From NCBI RefSeq assembly GCF_019890935.1, contig NZ_CP082333.1, positions 1,142,001 to 1,206,000 on the forward strand: DNA of 64,000 nt. Direction: 5' to 3'. A program made the position numbers and the translations under genes. Below the pieces are notes generated by a model, which did no database searches, was not told the DNA's origin, and worked only from the letters and a program-made list of their open reading frames with translations. This DNA is from Exiguobacterium acetylicum (GTDB lineage: Bacteria; Bacillota; Bacilli; Exiguobacteriales; Exiguobacteriaceae). How positions within the stretch are numbered: the first letter of the stretch is position 1; each line of letters begins with the position of its first letter. Positions 24,051 to 29,535 of the stretch are shown here, piece by piece.

Positions 24051-24374
24051 ATGCTGCAACCATACGTACAATTGGACGAGACCGGACAGCCCCGTAAAGG
24101 TGTTTTACCTGAAACAGCGGACGGTCGGATCGTTGAATTCTATTATGATACGAAGGGCGAAGAGATCACGGTGATCTTCGTCACCGTTCCGGCAGAAGAT
24201 GCGAGCCGGAAGCGTGCGTTTACGGTCGGGAAAACGTTCAAGACGGTCTCGACACTCGAAGACTTCACGTTACTTCACTATGAATGGGCAAATGACCAGA
24301 TTTTCGCAACACTTGAGATGTTCGCGGATGGGTCGAAACGTCAAATCGACGCTTCGAGATTGCTCGACTATTAA
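24051..24374 (+). CDS. Hypothetical protein, 107 residues
   Basis: A soluble beta-rich protein (GRIVEFYYDTKGEEITVIFVTVP, TLLHYEWANDQIFATLEM). GAAAGTGAGG lies upstream of the ATG. No family recognised. A single-gene transcript between yneK (divergent) and its own strong terminator. Confidence 0.65.
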   Translation: MLQPYVQLDETGQPRKGVLPETADGRIVEFYYDTKGEEITVIFVTVPAEDASRKRAFTVGKTFKTVSTLEDFTLLHYEWANDQIFATLEMFADGSKRQIDASRLLDY

Positions 24375-24413
24375 AAAAGAAGGAGATGCGGATTGCCGCG
24401 TCTCCTTCTTTTG
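24374..24413. terminator. Bidirectional terminator
   Basis: AGAAGGAGA-GCGG / CCGCG-TCTCCTTCTTTT, a strong GC-rich stem with T runs in both directions, between convergent genes. Confidence 0.88.
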
Positions 24414-24417
24414 ATAT

Positions 24418-25722
24418 TCAAGAAATATGAAGTCGGATGACCTCGTCATGCAGTTCCACCTGACCACCAATCGGGAACGTGAACAAAGGACTCGTATGTC
24501 CGAAGTCGACATTCGCAAGAACCGGTACGTGCTCTAGGAATGGATAGAGTGAGATCAGATATCGCAGATGCTCTTCCGTCATCTTCGTTGTGAGTTGGAA
24601 ACGTCCAAAGACGATCCCACGAATCGTTTCCGCGCCTGGTTGTGCCATCAAAGAGGCGAAATCACGGGCGAACGTCGCTGGATGGACTTCGTAATCATCT
24701 TCAAGGAATAAAATCGTATCCCGTAAATCAGGGAAGTGCGGTGTGCCTTGCAGGAGATTTAACGTACAAAGATTCCCACCGAGCAGACGACCACTCGCTT
24801 GCCCAGCGGATAAAAGAATCGGTCCTTTGTTTGGTAACGTGATGACGTGTCCGCGATCGGTATCGCGCCAATGCACCGAAGGCTTGATCGTAACGGGATC
24901 CGTTCCAAACAACACTTGCTTGAAGTAATCAATCGTATAGGCGTCGCGATCACGGAAAGCCCGTAACATTGGTCCAGAGTAAGTGATTAATCCAGTATTC
25001 GTTAGAATAGCGTGACTGAGTGCTGTGATATCGGAGAAGCCACACAGGATTTTCGGATGTGTCCGAATCAATTCGTAGTCGAGTAAGTCGACGAGTTCAT
25101 TCGTACTGAATCCACCGCGAACGCACAGAATCGCATCAACGTTCGGATCAGCGAACGCAGCATGGAGGTCTGCAACCCGTAATTCAGGATCACTGGAACC
25201 GAACGGATTGACGGCACGCGCATGTTGGCTGATCGAGACACGTAATCCGAGTGATTCGAGGGTTTGGATCGCACCATCGATGATCTTCATCTCGACCGTC
25301 GAGAGGCTGGAGGCTGGTGCGACTAAACGGACATGAGAACCATCCGTCAATTTCTTCGGTGTTAGCGTAGGCAGATGAGCAGCGATGATTTCTAACCGGT
25401 TACCGAAGGGATCAGCTGTGAAGAAACGACGACGGGGCGCAAGGCGTGTGTCATGCTCAACCGGATAACCGGCAGCTTGAAGAGCATCGCTCAACGCTTC
25501 GAACGCAGCGACGGTTAATCCAGGATGCGCTTTTTTAGCAGGGGAGAATGGCTCCTCGATACCGAGATGAAGTGCTGCACCATGGTCTTCGAACCAGACA
25601 CCACCACTAGCTTGAACGCCAGTCGGCTTTTCGACTTCCTTCATATGTAAAAGCCCGGCATAAAATGCACGGGCGCGATCTTCTTCGTTTTTCGGCATAG
25701 CGAGCTGGATATGATCTAACAT
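24418..25722 (-). CDS. Fusion: N-terminal VOC (glyoxalase-like) domain and C-terminal S66 (LD-carboxypeptidase/MccF-like) peptidase
   Basis: 434 residues in one uninterrupted frame. Residues 1-115 form a VOC domain with metal-ligand-like His4, His52 and Glu111. Residues 127-434 form a complete S66 serine peptidase with a probable triad of Ser230 (CGFSDITAL), Glu341 (FLEDDYE) and His409 (DFGHTSP), and the GGNLCTLNLLQGTP block typical of MccF-like members. S66 enzymes trim L,D-bonds of muropeptides or inactivate peptide-nucleotide antibiotics. The fusion is unusual. It lies 27 bases downstream of a helical-repeat protein gene. Confidence 0.82.
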   Translation of the reverse strand: MLDHIQLAMPKNEEDRARAFYAGLLHMKEVEKPTGVQASGGVWFEDHGAALHLGIEEPFSPAKKAHPGLTVAAFEALSDALQAAGYPVEHDTRLAPRRRFFTADPFGNRLEIIAAHLPTLTPKKLTDGSHVRLVAPASSLSTVEMKIIDGAIQTLESLGLRVSISQHARAVNPFGSSDPELRVADLHAAFADPNVDAILCVRGGFSTNELVDLLDYELIRTHPKILCGFSDITALSHAILTNTGLITYSGPMLRAFRDRDAYTIDYFKQVLFGTDPVTIKPSVHWRDTDRGHVITLPNKGPILLSAGQASGRLLGGNLCTLNLLQGTPHFPDLRDTILFLEDDYEVHPATFARDFASLMAQPGAETIRGIVFGRFQLTTKMTEEHLRYLISLYPFLEHVPVLANVDFGHTSPLFTFPIGGQVELHDEVIRLHIS

Positions 25723-25748
25723 GAAGACACTTCCTTTACGAATGAGAT

Positions 25749-26762
25749 TCAGGCAACGAACTGGGTGATTCGTTTTAGTTCACGTTCGACGAGGTTCAAG
25801 TAGAAGACACCTTCGATCCGGCGATCAAGAGATTGTGCAATCTCATAGAGATTCGTCCGAAGCGCTGCGAGATACGACGCTTCCTCACCAAGCGATTGAC
25901 GATGAGCAAAGGCATAGTGAGCGAGTAGGAACTGAAGATATCCACGATCAGTCAAGAACGGGATCAATTGTTTTTTCTCTTCCATCGACCAAGTATAGTT
26001 CGTATCATAATACATCTTCGCATACAGGTGATACGGTTCGTCACCGCCTGTAAAGAGGGTTTCACCCCGTTTGACTTCTTCGATCAAGCGTTCGCTCCAA
26101 TCGAAGCGTTCCTTTTTGCGACTGAGGAACAACGGTAGGATGTATGGATGAGCCTGATCTGGCATCCGCGAGCAACCGCGTTCATGCCGCAGAGCTGCAT
26201 AAAGTAGCAAGGCGCGATCTTCGAAGCCACGATCAATCGCATACGTCATCCGGCTGAATGCTTCACAGGACGGGCAATCACTGAGTTCGTCACTTGGCGC
26301 GTCAACCCATTCCGATAGATAATGATCGGCCTGTTCCTCGTCACCGAGTTTGCTGTAGACCATGAAGCTGATATAGTCACGTGTCCGAATAAAGCCATGC
26401 GCGTCACAGAAATCGATGAAGCGATCGAGGTCTTCTTCGAGAAGCGAGACCGTCACGTCTTCTTGTTCTGCCATATAGATCAAGTAGGACTTGTAGTTCC
26501 AGTACAAATCAAGTTCTTGTTTGGGAGTCAGTGTCATCTCATCTTTTCGGATCCATTCCATCAAGAGCGTGAAGGACACGAGAAACGATCGGAAGTGTCC
26601 TAAATCAAATTGATTTTGTGAAAATGCCCATAAGGAGAGGAAGCGGAGTGAATCATCAGCTGTTTCCTCAAAGATGGCCCATAAGGCCTCACCGCGTGCA
26701 ACGGAGGGTTCTTCTTCCTTTAAGCGAAGATATAAGAGATGGAGTTCTTCTTGAGGGTTCAT
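25749..26762 (-). CDS. Hypothetical alpha-helical (TPR-like) protein
   Basis: 337 residues from MNPQEEL with AAAGGAGGGG upstream; the longer ORF start lacks a site. Almost entirely helical, with repeated helix-pair spacing suggestive of TPR-like repeats, and a cysteine pair CPSC near the middle. No catalytic signature, signal peptide or membrane helix. Probably co-transcribed with the downstream VOC-S66 gene (27-base gap). Function unknown. Confidence 0.68.
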   Translation of the reverse strand: MNPQEELHLLYLRLKEEEPSVARGEALWAIFEETADDSLRFLSLWAFSQNQFDLGHFRSFLVSFTLLMEWIRKDEMTLTPKQELDLYWNYKSYLIYMAEQEDVTVSLLEEDLDRFIDFCDAHGFIRTRDYISFMVYSKLGDEEQADHYLSEWVDAPSDELSDCPSCEAFSRMTYAIDRGFEDRALLLYAALRHERGCSRMPDQAHPYILPLFLSRKKERFDWSERLIEEVKRGETLFTGGDEPYHLYAKMYYDTNYTWSMEEKKQLIPFLTDRGYLQFLLAHYAFAHRQSLGEEASYLAALRTNLYEIAQSLDRRIEGVFYLNLVERELKRITQFVA

Positions 26763-26833
26763 CTGTACCCCTCCTTTCTTATATAAGTATACCACGAGCG
26801 TTTTGAGAAATCGCAATTGAGCGAGGATGGAAT

Positions 26834-26873
26834 AAAAAAAGATTCCGAACCGGCTCAATCGCGGTTCGGAATC
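26834..26873 (-). terminator. Terminator overlapping the end of the Rrf2 gene
   Basis: GATTCCGAACCG / CGGTTCGGAATC (12-bp stem) followed by TTTTTTT on the minus strand. Its 5' arm contains the last codons of the Rrf2 gene. Confidence 0.88.
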
Positions 26874-27295
26874 ATTTCAAGTATTTGTGGATGAGTATCA
26901 GCTGTCGGATGTAGCAAATCATGTACCGTGTAACTATTGAGTACTTGATGGAACGCCGCAATGGCATCATCGAAGGCATCACGTGCCGGATTGAGCGAAG
27001 GGACCTCGTGAATGCCTTCTTGCGGATCGAGAAAATGAACGGTTGGTTCAAACAGTTGTACGACGTCACCGATATGAATTGCATCTGGAGGACCTGCTAA
27101 GCGGAACCCACCTCCACGACCACGGACAGAATCAATCAGACCACTCTGTCCTAAACGATAGACTACTTTCATTAAATGATTCTTAGAAATGTCGTAACAA
27201 TCCGCTACTTCCTGGATTCGGACTAAACGATCGGGATGGGCTGCTGCGAACAGCAGGGACCGAATCGCGTAATCCGTATAACGTGTCATGCGCAT
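26855..27295 (-). CDS. Rrf2-family regulator, NsrR-like but lacking the iron-sulfur cysteines
   Basis: 146 residues from MRMTRYTDYAIR (AGTAGGTG 6 bases upstream). The wing-helix region aligns closely with NsrR: YTDYAIRSLLFAA, ISKNHLMKVVYRLGQSG and RGRGGGFRLA. NsrR binds a 4Fe-4S cluster through three cysteines at about positions 92, 100 and 106. Here that segment (about 82-105, FEPTVHFLDPQEGIHEVPSL) has no cysteine, and Cys33 is the only one in the protein. So it cannot use the usual nitric oxide-sensing cluster. It is divergent from the flavohaemoglobin-like gene, which is the classical NsrR-hmp arrangement. Confidence 0.85.
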   Translation of the reverse strand: MRMTRYTDYAIRSLLFAAAHPDRLVRIQEVADCYDISKNHLMKVVYRLGQSGLIDSVRGRGGGFRLAGPPDAIHIGDVVQLFEPTVHFLDPQEGIHEVPSLNPARDAFDDAIAAFHQVLNSYTVHDLLHPTADTHPQILEMIPNRD

Positions 27296-27361
27296 TTTCA
27301 TCACCTACTTAACACACATACTAGGGGGGTACGCAAGCATTATCAACTCTCAATGTGCAAA

Positions 27362-27435: not shown

Positions 27436-28233
27436 ATGCATTTCGATCAGGCATTACACCTTTTGCAACAGCTCGGTCCATCGATGGAGCAAAAGGGATT
27501 GCGGATCGCGACGCGCTTCTATGACTCGCTTGAGGCGACGTACGAAGAAGAATTGCGCGCGCTTCGAGAAGCGGGGGCTCAGGACGGAACTCGCGCCTTG
27601 CGGATTTTACGCTTGAGTCAACTACTGAATCAGATTACCAATCAGCATGAATCGAGTGAACTGTTTAAATTGATTTTATTGAACGAAATCAATCAAACGA
27701 AATCGTTTCTGCTGACATACCCGGGCATCATCAGTCATGAAATTCTAAAAGCCATTCAGATCGAGTATGCATTAGAAGATGATGCACCGCTATTGCAAGC
27801 TTGGAGTATCGTCCATCATCAACTTGTTGATACGTGCCGACATTTTTGTAAATACCGCCGTGCTGAGAACTGGCGTCAACAAGATATTTTGTTGATTGCA
27901 GAAGAACATCATCTCGGAGCCGTCATTGACGAAGCCCGGCATGCGCTTCTGAGTGGTCGCAAAACGACCTTGTTACATGTCTCAGCTGAGGAACTGGCAG
28001 AACGAATGTTAGCGAATGTCCTATCCTTGACGACGAAAGGGATGATCGTTCATCACATTCGTCAAGAAGGATGGGAACAACAGATGCACGAATTCTTGAC
28101 GATGATCACGGCAAATGATCCGATCGTCTTCGTCAGTGGATCGACGAATTTCATTGAAGAAATCCAGCAACGACTTGATCCGTTACCGGTCCTGTTTGGT
28201 CCGTTCGTAGCGGCAAATCAATTACCCTCTTAA
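27436..28233 (+). CDS. Flavohaemoglobin-derived protein without haem ligands or FAD domain
   Basis: 265 residues against about 400 for Hmp. Residues 1-135 align without gaps to the Hmp globin domain (TRFYDSL at 26-32; TYPGIISHEILKAI from residue 94), so E. coli numbering carries over. The proximal haem ligand His85 is Ile85 and CD1 Phe43 is Leu43; Tyr29 and Tyr95 remain. The FAD domain is missing altogether, and residues 145-265 correspond to the NAD-binding half (ILLIAEEHHLGAVIDEARHAL; end DPIVFVSGSTNFIEEIQQRL then LFGPF, cf. CGPxxFM...FGP). Predicted not to bind haem or catalyse NO dioxygenation. Possibly a sensor or sequestering protein. It starts after AAGGTAGG and has a strong terminator. 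Confidence 0.75.
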   Translation: MHFDQALHLLQQLGPSMEQKGLRIATRFYDSLEATYEEELRALREAGAQDGTRALRILRLSQLLNQITNQHESSELFKLILLNEINQTKSFLLTYPGIISHEILKAIQIEYALEDDAPLLQAWSIVHHQLVDTCRHFCKYRRAENWRQQDILLIAEEHHLGAVIDEARHALLSGRKTTLLHVSAEELAERMLANVLSLTTKGMIVHHIRQEGWEQQMHEFLTMITANDPIVFVSGSTNFIEEIQQRLDPLPVLFGPFVAANQLPS

Positions 28234-28236
28234 CGA

Positions 28237-28292
28237 GAAAAGCGATGTGTAACGCTCTGACAAAAGTCGGAGCATGACACATCGCTTTTTTT
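28237..28292. terminator. Bidirectional terminator
   Basis: AAAGCGATGTGT-GCTC-GAC / GTC-GAGC-ACACATCGCTTT, a long stem with T runs both ways, between convergent genes. Confidence 0.88.
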
Positions 28293-29535
28293 AAGCTGAT
28301 TTCGTTAAGCGTTTTGCGCGTTGAATCGACCGGTCGAGTGCGAGATAGACCCCACCTGAGACACAACAGAGCAGTCCGACGAATCCGAGCGCAAAGTCAC
28401 CTTTTCCGGTATCAAGGAATAACGATCCGAGAAGAGGTGCGGTGACGCCGCCAATCAACCACTGGAGACTCGCAGCACCGTTGTACGTTCCGCGGAGGTG
28501 TTCCGGGGCGATCAAAGCGATGAACGTCATCTGGACAGGAGACATGATCATCTCACCGAGCGTATAGAACGCATAAATCGCAAGTAATACCGTCACGAGC
28601 ACGACATAACTCGTTCCGAGTGAGAACAGGTAGGACGGCACGAACGCGAGGAAAATCATGCCGATGCCGAAAATCGATGCCCCGAGCAACATGACTTTTC
28701 CGAATGCTTTGCCGGACAAGCGAGCAGCGATCGGGAACTGGAACAAGACGACCATGATCCCGTTCAGAGCCATCAGATAAGGGAACGGATTTTGTTTCGT
28801 TGGTAAGCCCGGTAGTGCTTCCTTCAAGAAGACCGGTAACATACTCTCGACGAGGGCAAATCCCATCGAGATGAAGACACCCGCCCCGATGAAGATTAAA
28901 AAGACATGATCCTTCCGCAATACAGTGAGCGGTGATACTTTGACTTCGTCCGTCTTTTCGATATACTCCGGTTTCGTTTCTTCGATGAAGAAGTAGAGAA
29001 CGAGTCCGTACAGGAAAAAGACGAAAGCGGCAGAGTAGAAGATGAGTGAACGGTCGACGAACAGGACGGCACTTCCGAGCAGTGGACCAAATGCGGCCCC
29101 GACGTTATGTCCCATCCGCAGCAGACCGAACGATTCGTTCAGGCGTTCTGGTGGCGTGACGTCCGCGACCATCGCGCTTGCCGCGGGATGGAACAGTGAA
29201 CTCGATAAACCGAGCAACGCGTTCAACGCGAGAAGTGGTCCGAATGAATCAGCGAACGAAAAACCGATTAAAGCAATGACGTCACCGATGATTGAGAGGA
29301 CCATCAGTGGTTTTCGACCGAATTTATCGGCGAAGTGACCACCGAGAACGGCGCCGACGAGCGACATGATCGGTCCGGTCGCCATGATGACACCGACCAA
29401 GAAGTAGGAATCGAGTCGATCCGCATAATAAAGAACTAAAAATGGTGCGATCATGAACATCATGATCCCCGTGATCGTTTCCCCGACGAACCGGATCCAG
29501 ATGTTGCGATCAAGCTGTTTGAGTGCGTTAAACAT
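28291..29535 (-). CDS. MFS transporter, probable multidrug efflux
   Basis: 414 residues, about 12 membrane helices. The MFS motif A is GGHFADKFGRKP (loop 2-3) and MGHNVGAAFGPLLGS in helix 5 resembles drug-antiporter motif C. Substrate is not evident. The gene is preceded by a long leader with its own promoter, a leader-peptide ORF and an intrinsic terminator, an arrangement typical of ribosome-targeting-antibiotic attenuation, so export of such a compound is a reasonable inference. The RBS is AAGGGG. Confidence 0.85.
   Translation of the reverse strand: MFNALKQLDRNIWIRFVGETITGIMMFMIAPFLVLYYADRLDSYFLVGVIMATGPIMSLVGAVLGGHFADKFGRKPLMVLSIIGDVIALIGFSFADSFGPLLALNALLGLSSSLFHPAASAMVADVTPPERLNESFGLLRMGHNVGAAFGPLLGSAVLFVDRSLIFYSAAFVFFLYGLVLYFFIEETKPEYIEKTDEVKVSPLTVLRKDHVFLIFIGAGVFISMGFALVESMLPVFLKEALPGLPTKQNPFPYLMALNGIMVVLFQFPIAARLSGKAFGKVMLLGASIFGIGMIFLAFVPSYLFSLGTSYVVLVTVLLAIYAFYTLGEMIMSPVQMTFIALIAPEHLRGTYNGAASLQWLIGGVTAPLLGSLFLDTGKGDFALGFVGLLCCVSGGVYLALDRSIQRAKRLTKSA

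Follow-up and report, generated by a model that had tools for sequence, protein, structure and literature searches.

In the window, i.e., the whole stretch of 64,000 nucleotides of Exiguobacterium acetylicum that was analyzed, one open reading frame combines two known protein families, which raises the question whether they truly form one enzyme and, if so, what this enzyme acts on. An earlier note had described a glyoxalase-like (VOC) domain followed, in a single frame, by a complete S66 peptidase with Ser230, Glu341, and His409 in place. The same arrangement was recovered by Pfam and in all 19 fusions compared here:

24418..25722, minus strand: VOC-S66 fusion gene, 434 amino acids (P0001), stop codon within the coordinates
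25375..25722, minus strand: VOC (glyoxalase-fold) domain, residues about 1-116
25366..25383, minus strand: linker, residues 114-119, six residues, of equal length in 19/19 fusions
24439..25365, minus strand: S66 peptidase domain, residues 120-428, with the triad Ser230, Glu341, and His409
25730..25737, minus strand: AAAGGAAG, a ribosome-binding-type sequence ahead of the fusion ATG, read from the sequence

On the minus strand, which the earlier note had not specified, an uninterrupted frame runs from 25722 to 24418, and a plus-strand reading of the stretch meets many stops. Pfam assigned residues 4-112 to Glyoxalase (PF00903; 27.1 bits, gathering score 20.6), residues 131-250 to Peptidase_S66 (PF02016; 123.3 bits, gathering score 25) and residues 310-424 to Peptidase_S66C (PF17676; 92.3 bits, gathering score 23.7). 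Two separate frames in related genomes, or an error near codon 310, had been named beforehand as signs of a false join. Both were found to be absent: each of the 19 genomes searched in the genus-level group of the host carries one unbroken frame that matches residues 1 to 427-434. Furthermore, the alignment of the 19 fusions is gapless from residue 1 to past residue 275, the VOC/S66 junction included, and thus the linker length is constant. In each of them a purine-rich ribosome-binding-type sequence lies just 5' of the VOC start. In none of the 19 do codons 101-145 contain an in-frame start accompanied by a Shine-Dalgarno-like motif, and a separate S66 protein made by internal restart was rejected on this ground.

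Selection was compared within two groups, each comprising nine genomes and thus 36 pairs, with L019 left out. The dN/dS ratios (Nei-Gojobori, ratio of means) were 0.088 and 0.095 for the VOC half and 0.037 and 0.073 for the S66 half, with two VOC pairs and eight S66 pairs of the second group dropped for synonymous saturation. These low values indicate that both halves are kept under purifying selection, while the VOC half evolves faster than the S66 half. An assembly or frameshift artefact that fused two genes is therefore a practically negligible explanation: no point in its favor was found, and both the purifying selection and the identical junction in 19/19 species genomes stand against it. 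The latter likewise rules out a sequencing error or a split gene. The join of VOC and S66 is genuine, forms one polypeptide and is old. A structure model of the fusion (11 sequences) is of middling confidence, with a mean pLDDT of 73.7 and a pTM of 0.64.

How far does this architecture reach? The fusion is present in 19/19 genomes of the host's genus, where the other 18 copies are 56-97% identical to that of the window; the copies from ten named loci belong to Exiguobacterium indicum, undae, sibiricum, antarcticum, and flavidum and to strains without a species name. In the sister genus it was found in 0/19 genomes (E 1e-60), and the best S66 proteins there are just 23-36% identical. A sample of 398 genomes of the class gave 68 with a match at E 1e-62, namely the 19 full-length matches of the host's genus and 49 others that start from about residue 101. 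In 398 genomes of the phylum ten had a match, which was of full length in the host alone. Thus no fusion was detected outside the host genus in either sample by a search that fusions with an unrelated VOC domain would escape. Two non-fused S66 frames of at least 400 amino acids were inspected as well: L099 has no VOC domain by Pfam, and L098 comprises 342 amino acids from its first start codon and has no VOC match. Among plasmid records 148/72,556 matched, among phage records 5/50,697, in both cases with none covering 80% of the query, and a scan of viral contigs delivered just two distant S66 relatives (28-31% identical). On these grounds a mobile origin of the fusion was rejected.

For phylogenetic placement, 82 fetched S66 sequences, which are not a random sample, were reduced to 75 different ones, and the domain tree was calculated with the loop columns left out. 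In this quick tree, which contains some long branches, the 19 fusions form one branch (SH-aLRT 100) nested among non-fused S66 proteins of Bacilli. Judged by this tree, the fused S66 half is of single origin within the MccF-like clade of Lmo1638 and BA_5613. An ancestral operon of adjoining VOC and S66 genes was considered and rejected: in 0/10 Bacilli genomes listed with both positions were the two genes adjacent by eye, five pairs being at least 160 kb apart on one contig and five on different contigs, for which the result is less certain since the assemblies are drafts. Six non-fused S66 genes inspected by eye shared no neighbor. A literature survey by title and start of the abstract found no paper on a VOC-S66 fusion, which does not by itself establish absence from print. 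As far as searched, the architecture is new, a lineage-restricted combination of two known families within these collections.

The S66 half allows a closer look at the likely chemistry. Ser230, Glu341, and His409 are invariant in 19/19 fusions, and the counterpart of Ser230 in the alignment is the Ala of 4inj, the S111A entry of a Listeria MccF-clade protein. In a PDB sequence search Lmo1638 (4h1h, 4inj) and BA_5613 (4e5s) came ahead of MccF and LdcA, and in the fold comparison of the model (residues 118-434) 4inj, 4h1h, and 4e5s reached Z scores of about 32. The most conspicuous change concerns one loop:

24829..24870, minus strand: shortened active-site loop, residues 285-298, lacking the Trp equivalent to MccF W180

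After Trp285 this loop comprises 12 residues in 18/19 fusions and 8 in L019. In 23/23 of the nearest non-fused S66 proteins 16 residues and one Trp follow the residue aligned with Trp285. The active-site-loop Trp is found in 0/19 fusions versus 56/56 non-fused S66 proteins (23 near relatives, 12 encoded by another S66 gene in the host genus, 11 from the sister genus, and 10 from a divergent group). It corresponds to residue 180 of B. anthracis MccF if a three-residue tag is counted, a numbering supported by the fact that the same count puts the nucleophile at its known position 112. PDB titles describe W180A as an active-site loop mutant (3sr3) and name an E. coli MccF mutant, W186F, together with AMP (3tlz); we take W186 to be the equivalent of W180. 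The loop Trp of MccF stacks on the nucleobase. In addition, several positions that hardly vary among the 23 nearest free relatives are fixed for another residue in all 19 fusions, among others S178D, F253L, S254R, F295T, and L355F (given as the residue of the free proteins, the position in P0001, and the residue of the fusions). The alignments thus place both the shortening of the loop and the loss of its Trp on the branch of the fusions. Since the triad is untouched while the loop and otherwise fixed sites are altered, the hydrolase machinery appears to be kept and the substrate side changed. As none of the 19 fusions retains the Trp, microcin C would be a less likely substrate than some other small amide. 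In the alignment, a divergent S66 group (L111-L119, L143) shows Phe in the Glu341 column, probably through misalignment.

The VOC half is conserved in its own way. His4, His52, and Glu111 occur in 19/19 fusions and His66 in 18/19, with L018 carrying Pro at residue 66, which might be a natural loss of the metal site. All four residues are kept in 23/23 related VOC domains that lack an S66 partner, which were fetched as best matches rather than at random and include five methyltransferase fusions. Gln6, Lys64, Arg99, Asp104, and Arg109 are invariant as well. His4, His66, and Glu111 occupy the positions at which VOC enzymes bind their metal and are thus putative metal ligands. The only credible match of this half in the PDB sequence search was 2qqz, an uncharacterized protein of Bacillus anthracis, which also reached a Z score of 14.8 against residues 1-116 of the model. 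Kinship with the VOC enzymes of bleomycin and fosfomycin resistance, which the earlier note had mentioned, is consequently not borne out, and FosA-type proteins match by fold alone. What does hold of that interpretation is a single VOC-S66 polypeptide in which the two active sites both seem to be intact. In five further genomes of the class, members of this VOC subfamily are fused to SAM-dependent methyltransferases, with the VOC domain N-terminal in four cases and C-terminal in one:

L082, 2940-4121: VOC-methyltransferase fusion
L083, 1946-3115: VOC-methyltransferase fusion
L084, 2953-4122: VOC-methyltransferase fusion
L085, 2160-3329: VOC-methyltransferase fusion
L086, 3000-4142: VOC-methyltransferase fusion

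Fusion of this domain to an enzyme has thus occurred on more than one occasion.

The neighborhood of the fusion gene comprises the following features:

24051..24374, plus strand: orf107, convergent with the fusion gene, position kept in 10/10 loci
24379..24408, no strand assigned: inverted repeat that separates the fusion gene from orf107 and has T-tracts on either strand, read from the sequence
25749..26858, minus strand: orf369, a protein without a known family, upstream of the fusion gene and separated from it by 26 bases
26855..27304, minus strand: NsrR/RirA-like regulator of the Rrf2 family, whose gene opens the apparent operon
27436..28233, plus strand: orf265, divergent, with a globin-like N half and a flavohemoglobin-reductase-like C half (weak matches)
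28291..29535, minus strand: MFS transporter (Pfam MFS_1)

Based on the spacing, the fusion gene is the apparent last gene of an operon led by the Rrf2-type regulator. The inverted repeat is likely a bidirectional terminator, although the terminator scan did not list it. Two promoter-like sites were found versus 3.5 expected by chance, which leaves the spacing as the ground for co-regulation. The true start of orf369 is probably nearer 26765, and outside the genus this protein has remote matches alone. The MFS transporter stayed below the cut-off of every NCBIfam efflux model. The gene order rrf2-orf369-fusion, flanked by orf107 and orf265, is kept in 10/10 named loci and the MFS gene in 9/10, as a contig end truncates the tenth locus. 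In the host group a six-gene block lies between DUF2621 and prfC. In the sister genus, these two genes are 142-178 bases apart without any gene of the block in 4/4 loci examined (L135, L136, L137, L139), which points either to a lineage-specific insertion or to a loss in the sister genus.

Some further observations were made at this locus. The product of orf265 (265 amino acids) resembles a flavohemoglobin cut down to a globin-like half and a NAD-domain-like half, with a weak match both by sequence (E 0.027) and by fold (5.5e-5, rmsd 17); flavohemoglobins are about 400 amino acids long. The NsrR-like regulator seems to lack the usual cysteine cluster, as far as its sequence can be read. A role of the fusion in anti-phage defense was considered and dropped, as PADLOC gave no hit for it.

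What, then, might the fusion protein do? Our best explanation, offered tentatively and with somewhat less than even confidence, is an amidase that would process or detoxify small molecules with the help of a live VOC domain. We favor it because the fusion is unbroken in 19/19 genomes, both halves are under purifying selection, the S66 triad is kept in 19/19 and the putative metal triad in 18/19 fusions, and the folds are those of the MccF clade and of 2qqz, and further because of the lost loop Trp, the single origin and the conservation of a gene block that also includes the Rrf2 regulator and the MFS transporter. The S66 half would use the Ser230/His409/Glu341 mechanism of MccF-clade enzymes and hydrolyze an amide bond or an aminoacyl bond in a small conjugate other than a peptidyl nucleotide like that of microcin C. 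The VOC half, holding a divalent metal at His4/His66/Glu111, would bind or chemically alter the same molecule or its product. Fusion enzyme and orf369 would be made under control of the Rrf2-type regulator, and the neighboring MFS transporter might export the compound or its product. One may speculate further, at the price of an improbable scenario, that the VOC domain, once fused, came to cover the substrate in place of the lost Trp loop and that the metal and serine-hydrolase sites act in turn; this would amount to a two-site detoxification of an unrecognized class of amide conjugates, unique to one Exiguobacterium lineage.

The plainest rival of an amidase with a live VOC domain, somewhat unlikely yet deserving attention, holds that the VOC half is a non-catalytic module for binding or dimerization, with the S66 half as sole enzyme. 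The live reading is weakened because the VOC half evolves faster than the S66 half, as a plain binding module would, and the live metal site in particular because L018 carries Pro at the His66 position. The recurrence of this subfamily next to methyltransferases, in both orders, is also what a portable module would show. However, the putative metal triad persists in 18/19 fusions and 23/23 relatives not fused to S66, and the five further invariant residues are kept along with it.

The other rivals concern the S66 half, and both roles had been put forward in the earlier note. Peptidoglycan recycling by an L,D-carboxypeptidase with an accessory domain is unlikely, even though LdcA belongs to the S66 family, LdcA folds match the model with Z scores of about 22 and the sole NCBIfam hit of the fusion is the muramoyltetrapeptide carboxypeptidase model (PRK11253). 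This role is weakened by the score on this LdcA equivalog model (NF008424; 127 bits, cut-off of 378 not reached), and solved MccF-clade structures match far better than E. coli LdcA (best E 6.6e-83 versus 8.5e-22). The host possesses two more S66 genes (L142, 1468-2553; L143, 1510-2520), neither of which reaches the LdcA model, so that they do not establish redundancy or a separate LdcA in the host; L143, its member of the divergent group, scores 64.5 bits. Distinctly improbable is a role in immunity or resistance of the MccF type, with cleavage of peptidyl- or aminoacyl-nucleotides. The nearest solved relatives are MccF-clade proteins, the catalytic triad is conserved, and standalone MccF-like enzymes are suggested as self-immunity genes in one published study (PMC9239234). 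Nevertheless, immunity to microcin C is weakened because the active-site-loop Trp is missing in all 19 fusions. Moreover, no microcin C biosynthesis gene is among the nine region proteins searched with Pfam, and the true MccF of B. anthracis is just about 28% identical.

The amidase with a live VOC domain thus kept as our tentative reading, the locus offers a clean natural case in which a single branch shows both the gain of a second domain and the loss of the substrate loop of a clade known for antibiotic inactivation, a coincidence that points to a change of substrate. Regulator, orf369, fusion enzyme, and transporter provide a defined gene set for a substrate hunt. If a substrate were found, it would inform the uncharacterized S66 proteins of the Lmo1638/BA_5613 type and the VOC proteins of the 2qqz type in Bacilli.

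Compared with known systems, the S66 half is closest to Lmo1638 (4h1h/4inj) and BA_5613 (4e5s), with 42-44% identity, Z scores of about 32 and the same Ser/Glu/His triad. In contrast to the fusion, both lack a VOC domain, and their active-site loop is four residues longer (eight compared with L019) and bears a Trp/aromatic pair that the fusion lacks. MccF (3gjz, 3tlc), the self-immunity peptidase of microcin C, has fold and triad in common with the fusion. However, it is about 24-28% identical, and the Trp mutated in 3sr3 (W180A) and 3tlz (W186F) is without counterpart in the fusion. The VOC half resembles 2qqz, a putative glyoxalase-family protein, with 38% identity over 114 columns and the same His/His/Glu positions, whereas 2qqz is a stand-alone protein. 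FosA, FosB, and VOC proteins of the bleomycin-resistance type are alike in fold (Z about 11-12) but give no sequence match, and no NCBIfam resistance model is reached by the fusion. Finally, the VOC-methyltransferase fusions of other Bacilli also join the same VOC subfamily to another enzyme, yet their partner is a SAM-dependent methyltransferase and their VOC domain may stand at either end, unlike in the S66 fusion.
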